Made by a program: the position numbers and the translations under genes. Positions 12,712-27,121 of a stretch of DNA of 64,000 bases are shown here, piece by piece. The DNA lies in contig NZ_CP097121.1 in NCBI RefSeq assembly GCF_024029675.1, forward strand, positions 186,001-250,000. Reading direction: 5' to 3'. The number at the start of each line of letters is the position of its first letter. The stretch's first letter is position 1. The stretch comes from Fructilactobacillus carniphilus (GTDB taxonomy: Bacteria; Bacillota; Bacilli; Lactobacillales; Lactobacillaceae). The notes under the pieces were generated by a model, which saw only the letters and a program-made list of their open reading frames with translations, searched no databases and was not told where the DNA came from.

Positions 12712-13027
12712 TTGACAAAATATCCGAACTATATATAATAAATACCAACAATTAAATGTAAAACATAAACAAAAAGAACGGGATAGTAACAAACGTTCGA
12801 TAGTTCAGAAAGTCTACGGTTGCTGTGAGTAGATCGAATCGACGTTTGCGAATATGGCCCGCAAATTGGCAGCATTGAGATTTAAATGCTGATGGGGTGG
12901 CAACCATTATTCACTGCACGCGTTAATTTTTGACGTTGGCGAGGATAGGTGCGTAAGTAGCTATCAAAGTAGAATGGTACCGTGGAGAAATCCGCTTCTA
13001 GTTAATGACTAGGAGCGGATTTTTTTG
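12712..13027 (+). promoter_or_regulatory. Promoter and T-box leader (probably methionine-specific) of the luxS operon
   Basis: Promoter TTGACA (12712-12717), 16 bases, TATAAT (12734-12739). The leader has the T-box parts in order. Stem I base CGGG (12779-12782) pairs with CCCG (12858-12861). AGTA lies on the 5' side of the specifier loop and GAA-T-ATG on the 3' side (ATG 12854-12856), closed above by AAACGT/ACGTTT. The T-box element TGGTACCGTG is at 12975-12984. The terminator AAATCCGCTTCTAGT/ACTAGGAGCGGATTT plus Ts runs 12988-13027. ATG as specifier means Met, which fits the genes downstream; a one-base shift (TAT) would be Tyr. Uncharged tRNA should favour readthrough. Confidence 0.9.
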
Positions 13028-20904: not shown

Positions 20905-21420
20905 ATGAAGGGAAAAGAAATAATTTTGGGATTGCTTGACACCCGAGGACCGCTAACTGGCTATGAAATTAACGAAATCATTCAACAGCAGTTAAACCAC
21001 TTCTATGATGGTAGTTATGGAATGATTTATCCCACACTGCGCAAGCTCGAAGAAGAGGGATTAGTAACCAAGCAGCAGGTTAACCAAACGGAAAAGCCCA
21101 ATAAAAACGTCTTCTCGATTCAGCCGGCGGGAAAAAAGGTCTTTCAAAAGGCGTTGCATGCTGATTTAAAGGGTGAGACCTTTAAGTCGGATTTCTTGTT
21201 AAAGCTGTACTTTGGGGATCAACTCACTAAGCAGCAACAACGGAATTTATTGCAACAAGAATTAGATTTTAAGCAGCTCAAGCTGGATGCGCTCCATGCT
21301 AACCGCGATGAATGGCAGCAAAATGGCATTACGGCCAATCAACAGTTTACCGTTGATTACGGGATTGCAACTTATGCAGCTCAAATCAAGGTGTTACAAC
21401 AAGCATTACAGCGTTTATAG
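20905..21420 (+). CDS. PadR-family transcriptional regulator
   Basis: A 171-residue regulator with the PadR winged helix at residues 1-80 (ILGLLDTRGPLTGYEINEII, YGMIYPTLRKLEEEGLV) and a C-terminal helical dimerisation domain (about 90-171). The arrangement downstream of a DHA2 exporter suggests it represses that exporter until a substrate or related phenolic compound binds. The candidate operator is at 19236-19271. Start ATG follows AGGAGGG. A bidirectional terminator follows. Confidence 0.92.
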   Translation: MKGKEIILGLLDTRGPLTGYEINEIIQQQLNHFYDGSYGMIYPTLRKLEEEGLVTKQQVNQTEKPNKNVFSIQPAGKKVFQKALHADLKGETFKSDFLLKLYFGDQLTKQQQRNLLQQELDFKQLKLDALHANRDEWQQNGITANQQFTVDYGIATYAAQIKVLQQALQRL

Positions 21421-21427
21421 CCCAACT

Positions 21428-21460
21428 AAAAACCTCGCCACAATCGTGACGAGGCTTTTT
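21428..21460. terminator. Bidirectional intrinsic terminator
   Basis: AAAAACCTCGCCAC pairs with GTGACGAGGCTTTTT (one mismatch, AATC loop) between the converging padR and aminotransferase genes. Confidence 0.85.
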
Positions 21461-22633
21461 CTATTCGTTGCGGTTTAAGTATGCTTGGATTCTTTCCATT
21501 GCTGCTTGTAGATTGTCCATGGAAGTGGCGTAACTAATCCGGACGTAACCTTCTCCACCAGGTCCAAAGGCTTTCCCAGGCACGACCGCTACTTTACCTT
21601 TACGTGCTAAGTCGTAGCTGAATTCAAAGCTATCTTGAATTTGATCTGACGGGATTTTGGCGAAGATGTAGAAAGCGCCATCGGGATTAGCTAATTCAAA
21701 GCCCATGTCCTGGAGTGCGGGAACGATGAAGTTCCGTCGTCTTTCGTACTCGGCCTTCATGGCAGCCGTGTCTGCTGCTCCGTTTTGGAGGGCCTCGGTC
21801 GCGGCCGCTTGGGCGTTGGTTGTGGTAGACGTAATTGTAAATTGATCAATTTTTTCAAGTTGATCGGTGATGTCCTTAGGCGCAGCCATGATGCCGATTC
21901 TCCAGCCGGTCATCGCGTGAGACTTAGAGACTCCGTTAAGTAGGATGGTTTGGTCGGGCAGGAGGCTCGCGATCGAAACGTGGGGGCCGCTGTAAGTTAG
22001 TTCGCTGTAAATTTCGTCGGAAATGACGAAGATGTTGTGCTGCTTGATAATCTTAGCTAATTTTTCTAAAGCAGCGCGATCATAGGTTTTTCCCGTCGGG
22101 TTGGATGGGAAGTTTAAGACGATAGCTTTAGTGTTGGGATGCGCTGCTAGCGTTTCTTCAAGCTGTTCGGGGGTCAGTACAAAACCGGTCCTAGAGGTGT
22201 CCATGAAGACGGGGTGGGCGCCGCGTAACTGGGTAACTGGAATGTAAAGCGGAAAGATGGGAGTGGGAATCAAAACGTCATCACCAGGATTTAGAATCGA
22301 GGTGAGGGCTGCGTAAATTCCGCCAGTTGCCCCAGCGGTCATGATAATTTCGGTTTCCGGATCGTAATTCAAGCCGTAGCGTTGGTGCAAAAAGTCGGCT
22401 GCGGCCTGCCGGAGTGCCGCGGTTCCCCGGGTAGGAGCGTAGTGGCTTTCGTCATTGTTAATGCTGGCAATGGCCGCTTGTTTAACATGTTCGGGGGTCG
22501 GAAAATCAGGTTCCCCGAGGGTCAAAGGAATCAGATCAGGAATTTGGCTTACGTCGTCATTGAATTTTAAAATGGCGGAGGGTGACAGTTCGAGCATTTC
22601 ATAGTTCATGTGGTTCACTAATGGATTAGGCAT
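21461..22633 (-). CDS. Class I/II aminotransferase (aromatic/PatA-like)
   Basis: A 390-residue PLP aminotransferase of fold type I. The PLP lysine is K237 in NGVSKSHAMTGWRIG, where the arginine that follows helps hold the cofactor phosphate. NFPSNPTGKT (174-183), DEIYSEL (206-212) and the C-terminal YVRISYA are also family landmarks. By general similarity it belongs with PatA/AraT enzymes acting on aromatic and other neutral amino acids. The gene is second in an operon behind a leader peptide packed with Phe, Tyr and Trp codons, independent support for an aromatic role such as the last step of Phe/Tyr synthesis from phenylpyruvate. Confidence 0.87.
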   Translation of the reverse strand: MPNPLVNHMNYEMLELSPSAILKFNDDVSQIPDLIPLTLGEPDFPTPEHVKQAAIASINNDESHYAPTRGTAALRQAAADFLHQRYGLNYDPETEIIMTAGATGGIYAALTSILNPGDDVLIPTPIFPLYIPVTQLRGAHPVFMDTSRTGFVLTPEQLEETLAAHPNTKAIVLNFPSNPTGKTYDRAALEKLAKIIKQHNIFVISDEIYSELTYSGPHVSIASLLPDQTILLNGVSKSHAMTGWRIGIMAAPKDITDQLEKIDQFTITSTTTNAQAAATEALQNGAADTAAMKAEYERRRNFIVPALQDMGFELANPDGAFYIFAKIPSDQIQDSFEFSYDLARKGKVAVVPGKAFGPGGEGYVRISYATSMDNLQAAMERIQAYLNRNE

Positions 22634-22653
22634 GGTAAAATCTCCTTTTAAAA

Positions 22654-23697
22654 TTATTGGTAATCAATGTGAAAATCTTCGGCCGTTTGCAGATGGAGCT
22701 TGTCAGTAAAGAGGTAGCGACTGAGAAATGCGAGCGCAACCGGTAAGACGATGAATAATAATAGACTCACGATGATGGCACTTCCCGTGGCATGCGGATG
22801 GGCGTCTAAATTGGCCAGCGGTCCAACTAAGCCAGAAAGGCCGAATCCGGCACTGACTGGAGTTCCTTTGACGTTGAACAGCGCCCCGATGCTTCCCACG
22901 ATGGCGGCATTAATTATGGAAGGAATAAACAACTTCGGTTTCTTTAACACGTTGGCCATCTGAATTTTGGGGGTTCCGACGAAATGAGAAATGGTGGTCC
23001 CCAGGGAATTCACCGATGAGCCCGCGATGGCAACGGTGAAGGCGGCGGCCGTAATTCCCAGGTTGGCAGAACCAGCGGCAATACCAGAAATTTCAATTGC
23101 AGTGGCAATTCCTACCGAGCTAATCGGGGAAAGGACGAGAATCGCAAAACAGATGCCCATGAGGGCGCCCATGATTAACGGTTGTAAACCCGTGAACTGC
23201 ATGATTAGTTTTCCAATGGCCGTGGTAAAGGCGGTCACTGGTCCAAGGGTCACGAGTCCAATCTCACCGCCAATCAGTAACGTTAGAGTGGGCAATAACA
23301 GAATTGTGTAACCTTTAAGGCGTTTGCCCACGAAAATGATGAGGGCATAGGCTATCGCGATGGTAATTCCGATGTTTAAAACGTTTCCGCTCCCGGTTAC
23401 AGCGATTTGTCCTTGGTTAAAGTGGGCGTTTCCAGCTCCAACTGCGGCTGCAAGGGCTAAACAAGTAGTCTGAATCGGCGTGAACTTGGCCAGCATCCCG
23501 ACACAAACGGCACTGGTGGCCGGCAGTAGCATGGCCGCAATCCCGGTCATAGCGAGGATGATGCTTAAAAAGGGGGCGTGGGGTACCAACGGTTTCACAA
23601 TGGCATTCAGGATGGCACCCGGTACGAGGGCCACAATTAATCCAATCGAGATTCCGTTTAAAATATTATTGGTGGCAGTTTTGAGCGAAGTTGGCAT
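22654..23697 (-). CDS. EIIC-like (PTS_EIIC_2 family) membrane protein, candidate aromatic amino-acid transporter
   Basis: A 347-residue polytopic protein with about nine or ten membrane helices and Gly/Ala/Ser-rich segments (AAAVGAGNAHFN, VTGSGNVLN, VAIAGSSVNSLGTTI). It looks like the PF13303-type EIIC proteins, which lack the attached IIA/IIB domains and the phosphorylation sites of ordinary PTS permeases; recognition is by eye. No IIA, IIB or enzyme I gene lies nearby. It is the first gene behind the aromatic leader attenuator, 20 bases before the aminotransferase. I infer transport of an aromatic amino acid or its keto acid; the alternative is an unrelated function with misleading regulation. 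Confidence 0.75.
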   Translation of the reverse strand: MPTSLKTATNNILNGISIGLIVALVPGAILNAIVKPLVPHAPFLSIILAMTGIAAMLLPATSAVCVGMLAKFTPIQTTCLALAAAVGAGNAHFNQGQIAVTGSGNVLNIGITIAIAYALIIFVGKRLKGYTILLLPTLTLLIGGEIGLVTLGPVTAFTTAIGKLIMQFTGLQPLIMGALMGICFAILVLSPISSVGIATAIEISGIAAGSANLGITAAAFTVAIAGSSVNSLGTTISHFVGTPKIQMANVLKKPKLFIPSIINAAIVGSIGALFNVKGTPVSAGFGLSGLVGPLANLDAHPHATGSAIIVSLLLFIVLPVALAFLSRYLFTDKLHLQTAEDFHIDYQ

Positions 23698-23726
23698 AAG
23701 CGGTCCTTTCTAAATTAAACAATGCT

Positions 23727-23981
23727 AAACAAAAAGCCTAGTTAGAACCGAGATTCTAACTAGGCTAGTTTTTCCAGAAAATTCCAATCCAAACGGACCA
23801 ACCTAGTTAAAATCGTTTCAGATCTAACTAGGCAACCAAAAATTACCTTACTTAGATCTGCGCGGATTCCAAGTAAAGTAAAAATAAAAGCTGGTTGGTC
23901 GAAGTGACTGACTGGTCATGATGAATTTTCCTTTCTAAGTTAAGTTGGCTTAATTAAACAATGATTAGGCGGAACTGTCAA
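23727..23981 (-). promoter_or_regulatory. Five-segment aromatic amino-acid attenuator
   Basis: Minus strand: TTGACA (23981-23976), 17 bases, TTTAAT (23958-23953), then a 23-codon leader ORF. Segment 1 (23860-23852) is inside its last codons. Segment 2 (23834-23819) pairs with 1 over nine bases. Segment 3 (23814-23800) pairs with 2 over eight or more bases and with segment 4 (23766-23754) over 13 bases including two G-T pairs. Segment 5 (23747-23735) forms a perfect 13-bp terminator stem with 4, followed by TTTTT. A ribosome stalled on the aromatic codons leaves segment 1 free, giving 1:2 and 3:4 and readthrough; a ribosome at the stop covers 1, giving 2:3 and 4:5 and termination. Confidence 0.85.
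23848..23919 (-). CDS. Aromatic leader peptide (23 residues, contains FYFYFTW)
   Basis: ATG 23919 is preceded by AGAAAGGA with nine bases spacing. Codons 11-17 read Phe-Tyr-Phe-Tyr-Phe-Thr-Trp, six aromatic residues in seven. The remaining residues are mostly Ser, Arg, Pro and Thr. Codons 20-23 form segment 1 of the attenuator, and the stop codon follows at once. Stalls on codons 11-15 leave segment 1 clear of the ribosome, while a stall on the Trp codon would partly cover it, so Phe and Tyr should be sensed better than Trp. It is a regulatory peptide in the style of trpL and pheL, not a structural gene. Confidence 0.85.
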   Translation of the reverse strand: MTSQSLRPTSFYFYFTWNPRRSK

Positions 23982-23989
23982 GGGTAAAT

Positions 23990-24991
23990 TTAAAGAACCG
24001 CATTCGGACAAGTTCCAGTAGCAATGGTTGTGGCAAAATTTTGATAACTAATGCTAATCATGTCTTTTAAAGCTGGTTCCGTAAAGGAGCCGACGTGGGG
24101 AGTGATAATGGCATTCGGAAATTGCTGGCTTAGCTGGAGCACTTCTTGATTGGGGAGTGCGGCTAAATGATCGAATTCCTTTCCAAAAATTTGGGCTTCA
24201 TCAACCACTACATCGGCACCATAGCCCCCAATCACTTGATTGGCTAGGGCCCAATTAACGGCAGGTAAGTTAACAACCTGAGACCGAGCGGTATTGATTA
24301 GGATTGCATCTGATTTCATAGCTTGTAATTCAGCTTGATCAATGAGATTTTCCGTTTTCCCAGGAATTAAGGGCACGTGGAGCGAAACAATATCCGCCTT
24401 TGCGAGTAATTCGGGAAGCCCAACGAGTGTAATTCCATTTTTTTGGTGGGGATCAGCTGAGTTGGGATCATAACCAATTACAGTGGCTCCCATTCCAGCA
24501 TATAATTTGCCTTCCGCGGATCCAATCCGACCACAGCCAATGATTCCTACCGTGGAACTATGAATTTCTTTACTAAAATAGTGATCCAAAACTTTAAAGT
24601 TCCCGTTATGGGTATTAGTAATTTCTGGAGCTACCTTCCGAAATAAAGTCATTCCCAGCGTTAAAGCTAGCTCTGCTACGGCGTAAGGGGAATAGGCGGG
24701 AACCCGGGCTACCTTTAACCCTAGTTCTTTGGTAGCGGTCAAATCTAGGTGATCAACTCCGACGGTTCGGGTGAAGACGTATTTAATTCCCCACGCTTTA
24801 AATTTTTCGAGGTTAGTCCGATCGCCTAAACAATTTCCCCGCAGTAAAACACCAGTTGATCCCCGTGCCGCAGTGGCGTTTTCGTGGTCTAGTAGTTCTG
24901 GAACAAGGTTCAATTCATAATCATGGGTATTTAATTCTTTAAAATAGGCAACTTCAATGGGGCGAACCCCGTATGCAGTGATTTTTACCAT
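23990..24991 (-). CDS. D-2-hydroxyacid dehydrogenase (D-lactate dehydrogenase family)
   Basis: A 333-residue NAD-dependent dehydrogenase with the lactobacillar D-LDH/HicDH pattern: MVKITAYGVRPIEVAYF at the N-terminus, the nucleotide motif GCGRIG in VGIIGCGRIGSAEG, catalytic arginine in NTARSQ, an acidic residue in VVVDEA and catalytic histidine in PHVGSFTEPA. The usual DTYE segment is altered to DVVVDEAQ and the FYTE motif to SFTE, suggesting a substrate other than pyruvate, possibly bulkier 2-oxoacids such as phenylpyruvate. It follows the AEC transporter gene by 14 bases, so they form one operon. It ends only nine bases before the aromatic leader's promoter. Confidence 0.85.
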   Translation of the reverse strand: MVKITAYGVRPIEVAYFKELNTHDYELNLVPELLDHENATAARGSTGVLLRGNCLGDRTNLEKFKAWGIKYVFTRTVGVDHLDLTATKELGLKVARVPAYSPYAVAELALTLGMTLFRKVAPEITNTHNGNFKVLDHYFSKEIHSSTVGIIGCGRIGSAEGKLYAGMGATVIGYDPNSADPHQKNGITLVGLPELLAKADIVSLHVPLIPGKTENLIDQAELQAMKSDAILINTARSQVVNLPAVNWALANQVIGGYGADVVVDEAQIFGKEFDHLAALPNQEVLQLSQQFPNAIITPHVGSFTEPALKDMISISYQNFATTIATGTCPNAVL

Positions 24992-25005
24992 GGTGGTTTT
25001 CCTTT

Positions 25006-26085
25006 CTATTTCAGTAGTCCCGTGCTATTGATTACTTGTAGAAGTGCAATCCAAATCGGCATCATGATTACGGCTAAGACCGTGGAAATCAGAGAGGCAT
25101 TGGAAGCTAGGATAGCATTGCGATTAAAGCTAATGGCGTACGCAGAGGCAACGGTTGCAGTTGGAGTGGCCATCATAATGACCATCGTAGCGATGGCGAT
25201 AAAGCTCATGGGCAGGATTCCCAGTGCAGAGAGGCCACCGGCTAGGACTAACGTTACTAATGGAACCAGAATTACTTTGTTAAAACCGTAGTACCAAGAA
25301 ATTTTGCTGCCGGCTGCTTGTTTGAAAGAAAGAGAACCGAGGGTTACCCCAATTGAAAGCCATGCTAATGGTGAAGCTAATTGGGCCAGGTAGTTAAGTG
25401 GAGTCCACAGCCACAATGCAGTTTGATCGATTCGGAAGAATGCTACCGAATGAGTTCCTGCGCTTTGATCAATAACGCCTTTTACGAAAGTAGGAACCGT
25501 TACGTGAGGAACGTAGTCTTGAATTAACCATAAAATCAAACCTAGGAAAGTAGCAATTACGACAGGATTAAGCAACATCTTTTTGACGTTCTTTAATTCC
25601 ATTTTGAGGCCAGACATTTTGATGTAGGCGTATGAATACAAGAAAACCCGATAGCCGATGTTAAAGATGGAACTATACATAATTCCTTTGGGGCCTAGCA
25701 CTGCGCCCACAATGGGAATTCCGAAGAAGGTCGTGGAACCAAAGGTGGTTAGGATTCCCATTACGTCCCGTTCTGATTTAGGTAACTTAATGTAAAGAAA
25801 GGGAGCGACAATGAGGAAAATAATGATGATTAAAAAGCCCCAAATTAAGACACTCATTCCTTCTGATAACGTTTTTCCGTCAATGGGTGCCATGAAGGAG
25901 TTAAGGGCTAAAGCAGGGATGGCAACGGTAAGGGTCACCTTGGCTAAGGTTTTTCCAAATTGTTCGGAAAAGATGTTCTTTTTCCGCAAAAAGAACCCTA
26001 GTAAAATAATAAAAATCGTTGAAGTGATGGCACTAACAATACTGGGATTAGTTAGAGTCTTCACGAATGCATCAGTAATAGTCAT
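25006..26085 (-). CDS. AEC-family transporter (malate permease-like)
   Basis: A 359-residue membrane protein with about ten helices in two halves joined by a polar loop. The auxin efflux carrier family hallmarks are the FGSTTFFGIPIVGAVLG segment in the first half and the TPTATVASAYA segment in the second. Lactic acid bacterial relatives include malate/citrate permeases (MleP type). Here the downstream partner is a D-2-hydroxyacid dehydrogenase, so exchange or export of a hydroxy acid is likely. The start ATG follows TGGAGGA. The direction of transport is not inferable. Confidence 0.85.
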   Translation of the reverse strand: MTITDAFVKTLTNPSIVSAITSTIFIILLGFFLRKKNIFSEQFGKTLAKVTLTVAIPALALNSFMAPIDGKTLSEGMSVLIWGFLIIIIFLIVAPFLYIKLPKSERDVMGILTTFGSTTFFGIPIVGAVLGPKGIMYSSIFNIGYRVFLYSYAYIKMSGLKMELKNVKKMLLNPVVIATFLGLILWLIQDYVPHVTVPTFVKGVIDQSAGTHSVAFFRIDQTALWLWTPLNYLAQLASPLAWLSIGVTLGSLSFKQAAGSKISWYYGFNKVILVPLVTLVLAGGLSALGILPMSFIAIATMVIMMATPTATVASAYAISFNRNAILASNASLISTVLAVIMMPIWIALLQVINSTGLLK

Positions 26086-26223
26086 ACAATCCTCCAGATT
26101 AGATTAAAGCTATTCTAAGCTTATGCGTTAATATCAAACGATTTTTATTTTAGCATGAATTTCTAATGTTTGTGAATGTTTTTTCAAATTTTACTTTTAC
26201 ACCTTAGCTTGATTACTAACTAA

Positions 26224-26256
26224 AAAGCATCGCCAGATACTATCTGGCGATGCTTT
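26224..26256. terminator. Intrinsic terminator after the zinc-ribbon protein gene
   Basis: AAAGCATCGCCAGATA pairs perfectly with TATCTGGCGATGCTTT; on the minus strand it is followed by TTT and lies eight bases beyond the stop at 26264. Confidence 0.85.
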
Positions 26257-26263
26257 GATTTAA

Positions 26264-27121
26264 TTATTTAGTTCGACTATTCAACGATACGTTTCCCTTG
26301 TCCACCTGTAAAATTGGTTGGCCGGTATCATCACGCACCACCTTAATGTTTGAGTAATCATCGTTGCCAGTGGAATTATTGCTAATTTCTTTGGAAATGG
26401 TCTGTAAGGCCTTGACGGCGGTGTCCCAAACTTGCGGGGATGAAGAATCGACACTCTTGACGATAGGGGAAGAAGCTGGGATGTTCACGTTAACCGTTTG
26501 GGCATTTGGATCCCAAGTAGCATTTGTTCCTTCACTATTTGGGACTTTATCGACGACCTTTTGTACGGCTTGGGCCGCATCTTGTCCCGACTCGTATTTG
26601 TTGTTTTGGGTAAAGGACTTCACGATTTCAACAATGTTGTTTTGTGGTTTACTTTGGTTGTCCTGATCTTTCGTATTAGTAGTTTTACCAGTTTGAGCCT
26701 GATTGGCTTGATTTTGGGATTGCACTTGACTGTTGTGATAGTTCTGATACGTGAAGAAGGCAATTACAGCCAGTAAAATTACCACTAACAGCACGATGAC
26801 GTTACGCCAGAAATGAGATTTGCGGGGACGAGGTTGATGATTTGTCGTATTCTTAGTTTGCGCTTTAGCGGGTTGGTCAGTTTGTTGCTGATTGGAATTA
26901 CTCTGACTTCTTGTTTGCGGTTCGTCACAGTAGGGACAGTACGAAACCCCATCGGGAATCAAATTTTTACACCGGGGACATTGGTGGGTTCGCACGTCAC
27001 TCCGGTTTAGATAAGTAGGTTCTAAGCTAGGTTGTTTGGTATTACAATATGGGCAGTATTGGGCGGTTTGCGGGATTTCTTTACCACAGTTAGTGCAAAA
27101 TTTCTTGTTTTCTGAATTCAT
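26264..27121 (-). CDS. Membrane-anchored double zinc-ribbon protein
   Basis: A 285-residue protein with two CxxC...CxxC zinc ribbons at the N-terminus (CTNCGKEIPQTAQYCPYC, residues 9-26, and CPRCKNLIPDGVSYCPYC, about 48-65), a Gln/Asn-rich linker, one membrane helix (about 107-126), another polar linker and an extracellular domain of roughly 120 residues. The layout (cytoplasmic ribbons, helix, exterior domain) is widespread in lactobacilli and has no firm function. It stands alone, divergent from gntP. Confidence 0.8.
   Translation of the reverse strand: MNSENKKFCTNCGKEIPQTAQYCPYCNTKQPSLEPTYLNRSDVRTHQCPRCKNLIPDGVSYCPYCDEPQTRSQSNSNQQQTDQPAKAQTKNTTNHQPRPRKSHFWRNVIVLLVVILLAVIAFFTYQNYHNSQVQSQNQANQAQTGKTTNTKDQDNQSKPQNNIVEIVKSFTQNNKYESGQDAAQAVQKVVDKVPNSEGTNATWDPNAQTVNVNIPASSPIVKSVDSSSPQVWDTAVKALQTISKEISNNSTGNDDYSNIKVVRDDTGQPILQVDKGNVSLNSRTK

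Follow-up and report, generated by a model that had tools for sequence, protein, structure and literature searches.

The window analysed here is a 64,000-nucleotide stretch of the Fructilactobacillus carniphilus genome. Its minus strand carries, between 23981 and 23727, the whole set of parts named in an initial annotation: a promoter, a 23-codon open reading frame (ORF) with FYFYFTW, and a series of complementary RNA segments. The parts precede an operon that encodes a PTS_EIIC_2 family membrane protein (EIIC) and an aminotransferase. The features are as follows.

23953..23981, minus strand: promoter TTGACA - 17 nt - TTTAAT, read directly by eye
23929..23936, minus strand: Shine-Dalgarno AGAAAGGA of the leader ORF
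23848..23919, minus strand: leader peptide ORF MTSQSLRPTSFYFYFTWNPRRSK, ATG start, 23 codons, from the ORF list
23869..23889, minus strand: sensor codons Phe-Tyr-Phe-Tyr-Phe(-Thr-Trp)
23868..23881, minus strand: segment A, over the Tyr-Phe-Thr-Trp codons, pairing over 14 bp with 23843-23856 in the minimum free energy (MFE) fold and predicted to hide segment B when untranslated
23843..23856, minus strand: partner of segment A, overlapping segment B and the leader stop codon (MFE fold, alignment)
23852..23860, minus strand: segment B, CAGAUCUAA, pairs with C
23819..23832, minus strand: segment C, partner of B or D
23800..23814, minus strand: segment D, antiterminator strand, partner of C or E
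23752..23766, minus strand: segment E, partner of D or F
23735..23747, minus strand: segment F, 3′ arm of the intrinsic terminator (terminator scan)
23727..23735, minus strand: U tract of the terminator
22654..23697, minus strand: regulated gene 1, a 347-aa PTS_EIIC_2 family membrane protein (PF13303)
21461..22633, minus strand: regulated gene 2, a 390-aa class I/II aminotransferase (profile and PDB matches)

As in known leader-peptide attenuators, the short ORF and its ribosome-binding site lie close to the 5′ end of the transcript, whose start is deduced from the promoter. The promoter is missing from the list of a consensus scan, and its second hexamer has T at position 2. The best NCBIfam match of the aminotransferase is PRK07309, at 542.7 bits under a cut-off of 576, and its second-best PDB match, 1dju, is named as an aromatic aminotransferase. 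A search of solved structures returned none for EIIC. Aromatic substrates are probable for both proteins.

Genes for an AEC-type transporter and a D-2-hydroxyacid dehydrogenase occupy 23990-26085 on the minus strand, directly upstream of the promoter. The dehydrogenase gene ends 8 bases from the promoter on the same strand. The pair is found at the same place in F. sanfranciscensis (L037). Transcripts from the pair, if running through, would also meet the attenuator.

Alternative pairings and their conservation

The five segments of the initial annotation, its 1 to 5, correspond exactly to B to F: B:C has 9 bp, C:D has 10 bp, and E:F has 13 perfect bp. The D:E pairing is also present and was counted here as 15 bp with two G-U pairs, where thirteen had been given. 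That anatomy was incomplete, however, and missed the sixth, upstream segment A over the Tyr-Phe-Thr-Trp codons. With A included, A:B, C:D, and E:F constitute the terminating structure, and B:C and D:E the readthrough structure. Pairing counts and alignments show that terminator and antiterminator are mutually exclusive in the window leader, as in an attenuator. The terminator is the minus-strand site 23766-23735 of the terminator scan, which proves little by itself since it gave 10 terminator-like sites versus 7.2 expected in 21000-26500. The 234-nt leader folds at -73.6 kcal/mol compared to a mean of -48.4 kcal/mol for dinucleotide shuffles (z -6.24), and 0 of 200 shuffles are as stable.

EIIC was searched among species genomes (80 loci kept of 161), in 10 genomes of the genus (8 with a match), and in 201 genomes of the family (matches in 128 at E 0.001, with 30 loci retrieved). 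The nearest relatives by EIIC are Fructilactobacillus sanfranciscensis, F. lindneri, F. florum, and Lactobacillus sp. S2-2, whose proteins are 64-71% identical to that of the window, in agreement with the lactobacillus origin proposed earlier. Leaders were sought by script as Shine-Dalgarno-preceded ORFs of 8-60 codons, with at least four aromatic residues in seven and no overlap with ORFs of at least 110 codons. An aromatic-run leader precedes EIIC or its operon in 50 of the 80 loci, and 49 of these have at least five aromatic residues in seven. Elsewhere upstream in the 80 loci, one other 5-of-7 ORF (L086) and 15 more at 4 of 7 occur. Two of the 50 leader loci, in Faecalicatena (L095) and Jeotgalibaca (L100), lie outside Lactobacillaceae, as judged by record title. 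The script scan returned no such leader for 30 loci, some of them on short contigs; 21 are outside Lactobacillaceae (Clostridium, Exiguobacterium, Vagococcus, Listeria, Erysipelothrix, and others) and nine inside (L040, L043, L044, L055, L064, L066, L086, L096, and L114).

The gene order, read by BLAST against the window's proteins, varies among the relatives. The order leader-aminotransferase-dehydrogenase-EIIC is present in, for example, Lacticaseibacillus, Liquorilactobacillus, and L. salivarius, and leader-aminotransferase-EIIC in, for example, three Pediococcus, Paucilactobacillus, and L. delbrueckii, in the last of which the aminotransferase ORF is split in two pieces. F. sanfranciscensis and F. 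lindneri have leader-EIIC-aminotransferase-dehydrogenase. In F. florum, S2-2, bee-associated Lactobacillus, and others, the leader precedes EIIC and these enzymes do not adjoin it. The sensor residues differ between genera within F/Y/W, as illustrated by FYFYF, YYFGYF, FFSFYYW, and YYYFYFF.

A contig of Bifidobacterium xylocopae (L074) has an aromatic ORF at 4 of 7, which was left out of the leader count. The EIIC on this contig is 50% identical to that of the window over the best segment and was possibly transferred from bee lactobacilli.

The structures were compared in 57 leaders, comprising 50 from the 80 loci, that of the window, and six others; because leaders share ancestry within clades, their counts are not counts of independent events. 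A terminator is located 64-169 nt past the leader stop in all 57 leaders, in two of them placed by hand. A TTGAC box lies at most 80 nt 5′ of the leader start in 29 of the 57.

Seven Fructilactobacillus sequences were aligned, of which three are closely similar and two lack part of the 5′ side. In their terminating structure (A:B, C:D, and E:F), 96.1% of cells are paired, and both sides have changed in 8 pairs; the shuffle mean is 4.0, and 1 of 500 shuffles is as high. The readthrough structure (B:C and D:E) has 88.6% of cells paired and 4 double-sided changes, with a shuffle mean of 2.0 and 16 of 500 shuffles as high. Among individual segments, the helix of A has 92.9% of cells paired and 2 pairs changed on both sides, the pairing of B has 87.3% and 1, and that of F has 100% and 5. 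Compensatory changes exceed those of shuffles in Fructilactobacillus and are less clear in the other groups. In nine sequences of Pediococcus, Secundilactobacillus, Paucilactobacillus, and Lentilactobacillus (the Pediococcus group), the terminating structure has 94.1% of cells paired with 7 double-sided changes (6/500 shuffles), and the readthrough structure 96.0% with 1 (44/500 shuffles). In 11 sequences, mostly from bee lactobacilli, B:C and D:E are kept at 93.5%, yet do not exceed shuffles. Each group structure was drawn on one member of its group, which biases these values in its favour; sliding the partners by 1-3 columns lowers pairing to 16-57%.

Ten Liquorilactobacillus-type sequences were counted by ourselves with no control. 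The paired cells are 80/80 for B:C, 96/100 for C:D, 70/70 for D:E, 73/90 for E:F, 84/100 for F:G, and 115/120 for G:H, with few compensatory changes, which suggests a leader with one relay hairpin more. Between clades, the sequences diverge and the topology is kept. A segment A that covers the sensor codons and excludes B:C is present in Fructilactobacillus. The partner of A in the Pediococcus group lies 3′ of B, so that B is in the loop. The check proposed in the initial annotation, retention of aromatic codons and pairings in relatives, thus came out positive, and at the sequence level it upholds aromatic-codon sensing and the switching logic.

Computed dependence on ribosome position

To represent the ribosome, the RNA that it covers and all RNA 5′ of it were removed, and the remaining transcript was folded as far as segment D. 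In the window leader, computed at all 24 positions, the probability that D is held by C falls from 0.70-0.92 at the positions before the run to 0.14-0.44 on the seven F/Y/T/W codons, and rises again to 0.77-0.80 at the Asn after the run and all later positions up to the stop; it is 0.92 with no ribosome. Segment D is freed only with the ribosomal A site on these seven codons.

A clear dip is found in 22 of the 57 leaders. Fifteen minima fall on F/Y/W codons, where the codon share predicts 5.9; three lie on another residue of the run, and four on a stop or Cys codon (L037, L039, L087, and L076). Compared with dinucleotide shuffles of the region 5′ of C, 19 of the 57 leaders reach 0.05, where about 3 are expected. 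The window leader barely does so (2/60 as good), and three of the 19 have no useful drop (L039, L069, and L012). The automatic choice of segment D failed in several clades, and 17 leaders were redone by hand with no shuffle control. Eight of these have a dip at the sensor codons or next to them, L091 has a slight one, and another eight show no dip (L036, L038, L046, L063, L067, L018, L089, and L076). In total, the computed structure depends on where the ribosome stands in 26 of 57 leaders, those of the window and of 25 among its 56 relatives (18 by automatic placement, the window included, and 8 by hand), and the folds of the rest show no such dependence.

Twenty-three further leaders, described below, were also profiled. 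L174, L176, L180, and L191 dip clearly on sensor codons, which are Ser(-Trp) codons in the serine leaders L176 and L180 and Leu codons in the Leu/Ile leader L191. The dips on sensor codons are slight in L178, L181, L203, L207, L208, and L209. The other profiled leaders, including L182, L205, L188, L211, L212, L183, and L190, show no dip or a dip elsewhere. Three leaders stand outside the attenuator test: the script found no terminator for L213, its terminator for L177 is weak, and that for L192 falls within the first ORF.

The equilibrium fold up to segment E was uninformative as a test of switching in the window, where D:E wins at every ribosome position. The decision must therefore be kinetic, in the order of transcription.

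The reading we favour, with a probability of about 0.88, is a ribosome-mediated transcription attenuator sensing Phe/Tyr supply. When charged tRNA is sufficient, the ribosome would reach the stop codon and cover B; C:D and then E:F would form, and transcription would terminate before the EIIC-aminotransferase operon. If the leader is untranslated, A would hide B with the same outcome. When charged tRNA-Phe/Tyr is short, the ribosome would stall on FYFYF and open A, so that B stays free. B would then take C, D would take E, no terminator would form, and the operon would be read. From the observed parts, alternative pairings, conservation, compensatory changes, and computed ribosome-position dependence, we infer termination and readthrough in vivo with aminoacyl-tRNA as the signal. 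It is only the regulatory logic that points to salvage on starvation, in which the operon would gain aromatic amino acids by aminating 2-oxo acids, which perhaps derive from imported 2-hydroxy acids, and would not degrade them.

Exchange of sensor codons and downstream genes

The Pediococcus-type leader was turned into a covariance model, R1, which has matches at E ≤ 0.001 in 86 of 301 Lactobacillaceae genomes (15 of 40 genera); part of the matches were inspected. The model misses Fructilactobacillus and is thus not complete. Among 50 inspected places, the best 30 all have an aromatic leader. The 20 further places comprise 14 aromatic leaders, five serine leaders (e.g. MTNLLTNIVTSSSWSTDLSV), and one Leu/Ile-rich ORF.

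The five serine leaders contain an SSSWS run with Ser codons of the TCN type and come from five genomes of another Lactobacillaceae genus (L176, L178, L180, L181, and L182). The first gene after each passes the cut-off for phosphoserine transaminase (serC). The second is a 2-hydroxyacid dehydrogenase, with phosphoglycerate dehydrogenase as its best NCBIfam match in L180, below cut-off. Aromatic leaders precede aroE-DAHP synthase-aroB (L177, with a gene layout of similar appearance in L179) and transketolase-aroE-DAHP synthase (L188). Two further aromatic leaders precede genes for a TrpX-type binding protein, with a score below cut-off (L192), and for a weakly matched prephenate dehydratase (L174). 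In the window too, the codon run FYFYF(T)W probably matches the downstream pathway; the class of the run is kept in the relatives and changes together with the gene that follows, be it serC, a permease, or an aro gene.

A second covariance model (R2), built on the leader type of the window itself, was run against the 10 genus genomes. Seven of them contain a window-type leader, and seven a second copy with serine codons. In the window's own genome, this serine copy is at G000:C1:1438444-1438608 and encodes MNKLMQKLMSSSNSTWIA, with the motif MSSSNSTW (locus L203, G000:C1:1438144-1442600, leader at about 274; siblings L205-L209 and L214). In L207 the run is SSSSF. The gene after the serine leader is an amino-acid permease (AA_permease_2) in the five loci tested (L203, L205, L207, L208, and L214), and in L206 the ORF after it is in two pieces. 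The scaffold pattern, with at most three mismatches, occurs twice in the window's genome, at the aromatic and serine leaders only, and 0 times in a backwards control. Another R2 match in this genome, L204 (E 0.0017), is a bare terminator.

The serine copy also bears on the signal, for which the initial annotation had suggested tests under Phe, Tyr, and Trp limitation. Sensing of Phe/Tyr codons holds up by sequence, but Trp is probably not a dedicated signal, because the Thr-Trp pair is kept in the serine leader of the same genome. The Trp codon still falls within the positions that free segment D in the window leader by folding.

Three loci have other codon runs. The leader of L212 (at about 231; MTKLNFKIQLACCCTCYML) has Cys codons in the run ACCCTC and precedes an SDF-family symporter (R2 E 3.6e-5). 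That of L211 (at about 269; MKNSKMNRNKQNISVLISLIIIS) has the Val/Leu/Ile run SVLISLIII and precedes an EIIC_2 paralogue (R2 E 1.4e-5). L191 has the Leu/Ile run LLDLHLFLLII before an L-LDH-family gene. These are single cases with weak model scores and perhaps represent Cys, Val/Leu/Ile, and Leu/Ile versions of the leader. Aromatic leaders at weak R2 matches precede MFS-aroE-aroD (L213) and MFS-type ORFs with aroC (L210). The matches L210-L213 have E values of 1.4e-5 to 1e-4 in single genomes. Since bare terminators outside the genus reach E 3.2e-6, these four are judged by codon runs and matching genes, and not by score.

In L210, L213, and L215, an extra hairpin, seen by eye, separates the leader stop from segment B and looks like an inserted further relay step. 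All three are aromatic leaders before MFS-type genes, judged by eye only in L215, and aro genes follow in L210 and L213.

The tendency of R2 to match terminators as such is what a plain terminator with a chance ORF and chance complementarities would predict. The model also matches reverse complements, and in the 201 family genomes, seven of eight inspected weak matches outside the genus were bare terminators, the other being the aromatic leader L215. The ORF, the codon class, the pairings, and the position are, however, conserved in many genera, and the comparative data contradict this explanation, which we find hardly credible.

By sequence comparison, the RNA backbone appears to be kept while the sensor codons are exchanged within what would be one Lactobacillaceae family, and we regard this as the strongest evidence for the switch. 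A backbone that stays while codons and downstream genes change together is predicted by codon-starvation attenuation and not by a single-ligand arrest peptide.

A TnaC-like arrest peptide would stall through its nascent chain at abundant free aromatic amino acid, and the operon would be catabolic and induced by excess. Genes of this operon type are often regarded as catabolic, and residues beyond the sensor run do recur. The motif Q-x-N, mostly QLN, is present in 49 of 82 distinct leader peptides, compared to 12.3 expected from shuffled peptides and a maximum of 21 in 500 shuffles; the 82 are the 57 leaders and 30 picked later loci with duplicates merged, and their relatedness inflates the count. 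The motif usually occupies residues 6-11, usually ahead of the sensor codons, and occurs in leaders of different specificity. Its middle residue is Leu in 36 of 46 distinct cases and is spelled by five codons, so that selection points to the peptide. The other two codons are nearly fixed, with CAA for Gln in 44/46 and AAT for Asn in 41/46, and selection at the RNA level is also conceivable. The motif fits attenuation less well, and selection may have acted on the peptide, with an effect of the nascent chain on stalling. Against an arrest peptide, the sensor residues vary within F/Y/W between genera, and the same backbone has Ser codons where Ser genes follow. We consider it improbable.

Extending the attenuator reading to the whole family, we tentatively propose a modular relay RNA. 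Copies of it would have reached new operons and acquired other sensor codons there (aromatic and serine codons, perhaps also cysteine or branched-chain ones), and QLN would often tune the stall through the nascent chain. The aminotransferase-hydroxyacid dehydrogenase-EIIC operons would then serve starvation-induced aromatic salvage from 2-oxo or 2-hydroxy acids, and not catabolism. This wider proposal is possible rather than probable. The leader codons suggest aromatic substrates for the EIIC_2 transporter and serine for the permease and, in single cases, cysteine for the SDF symporter and Val/Leu/Ile for the EIIC paralogue.

Relation to known leader regulators

Leader-peptide attenuation is a textbook mechanism. 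The enteric his operon leader consists of six alternating segments, A-F, and resembles the present leader in its logic. In its untranslated and fully translated states, A:B, C:D, and E:F form and transcription terminates; on stalling, B:C and D:E give readthrough. The present leader differs in its aromatic codons, sequence, and Gram-positive host, and the Liquorilactobacillus version apparently has one relay hairpin more. Enteric pheA and trp leaders likewise carry cognate codons, Phe or Trp, in a short ORF before an intrinsic terminator, whereas the lactobacillus leaders have a mixed Phe/Tyr run, more segments, and other genes. Panina et al. reportedly treated aromatic genes of low-GC Gram-positives in 2003.

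Leader-peptide attenuation in Firmicutes is described in excerpts of several papers. Ribosome-mediated ilv-leu attenuators have experimental support in Listeria (Rli60, PMC5864092) and Staphylococcus aureus (PMC5794164); the latter paper also cites predicted ones in Lactococcus and Streptococcus. These have branched-chain codons and genes, and the likeness to the present leader is one of description and not of compared sequences. Histidine leader peptides replace T-boxes in Bacillales and other Firmicutes (PMC2965389, PMC9413887); they carry His codons, and the excerpt of PMC9413887 lists the his genes of Lactobacillales under T-boxes. The initial annotation had called such attenuation unusual for Gram-positives. 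This holds for aromatic genes, but not for branched-chain and histidine genes, for which the excerpts describe Firmicute leader attenuators (PMC5794164, PMC5864092, PMC9413887, PMC2965389). In the open-licence PMC literature, we found no description of an aromatic or serine leader attenuator in lactobacilli. What appears new is therefore the aromatic, broadly distributed, and codon-swapped family and not the mechanism.

Amino-acid gene control in lactobacilli is usually assigned to T-boxes, and a widespread codon-swapped leader-peptide family would change this T-box-centred picture. Phenyllactate is a food-preserving metabolite, and the family would also predict which way the pathway linked to it runs. 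With its set of naturally rewired sensors on a single RNA backbone, the family would provide material for studying switch evolution.

T-box leaders (RF00230; treated in PMC2494555) sense uncharged tRNA and work without the ribosome. A T-box, or another RNA that reads tRNA or a metabolite without the ribosome, would be a common device here, as 28 T-box matches at E ≤ 0.001 occur in the same genome, 5 of them over the cut-off. However, 23690-24010 contains no T-box or riboswitch match even at E 10, and the ORF, its ribosome-binding site, and the cognate codons would be left unexplained, which makes such an RNA highly improbable at this leader. With Rfam 15, no family exceeds its gathering score in 23690-24010; the eight matches below cut-off are six microRNAs, one sRNA, and one viral pseudoknot. 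Elsewhere in the window, a T-box leader is located at 12765-13002 on the plus strand, with 92.4 bits, just below Rfam's cut-off of 93.
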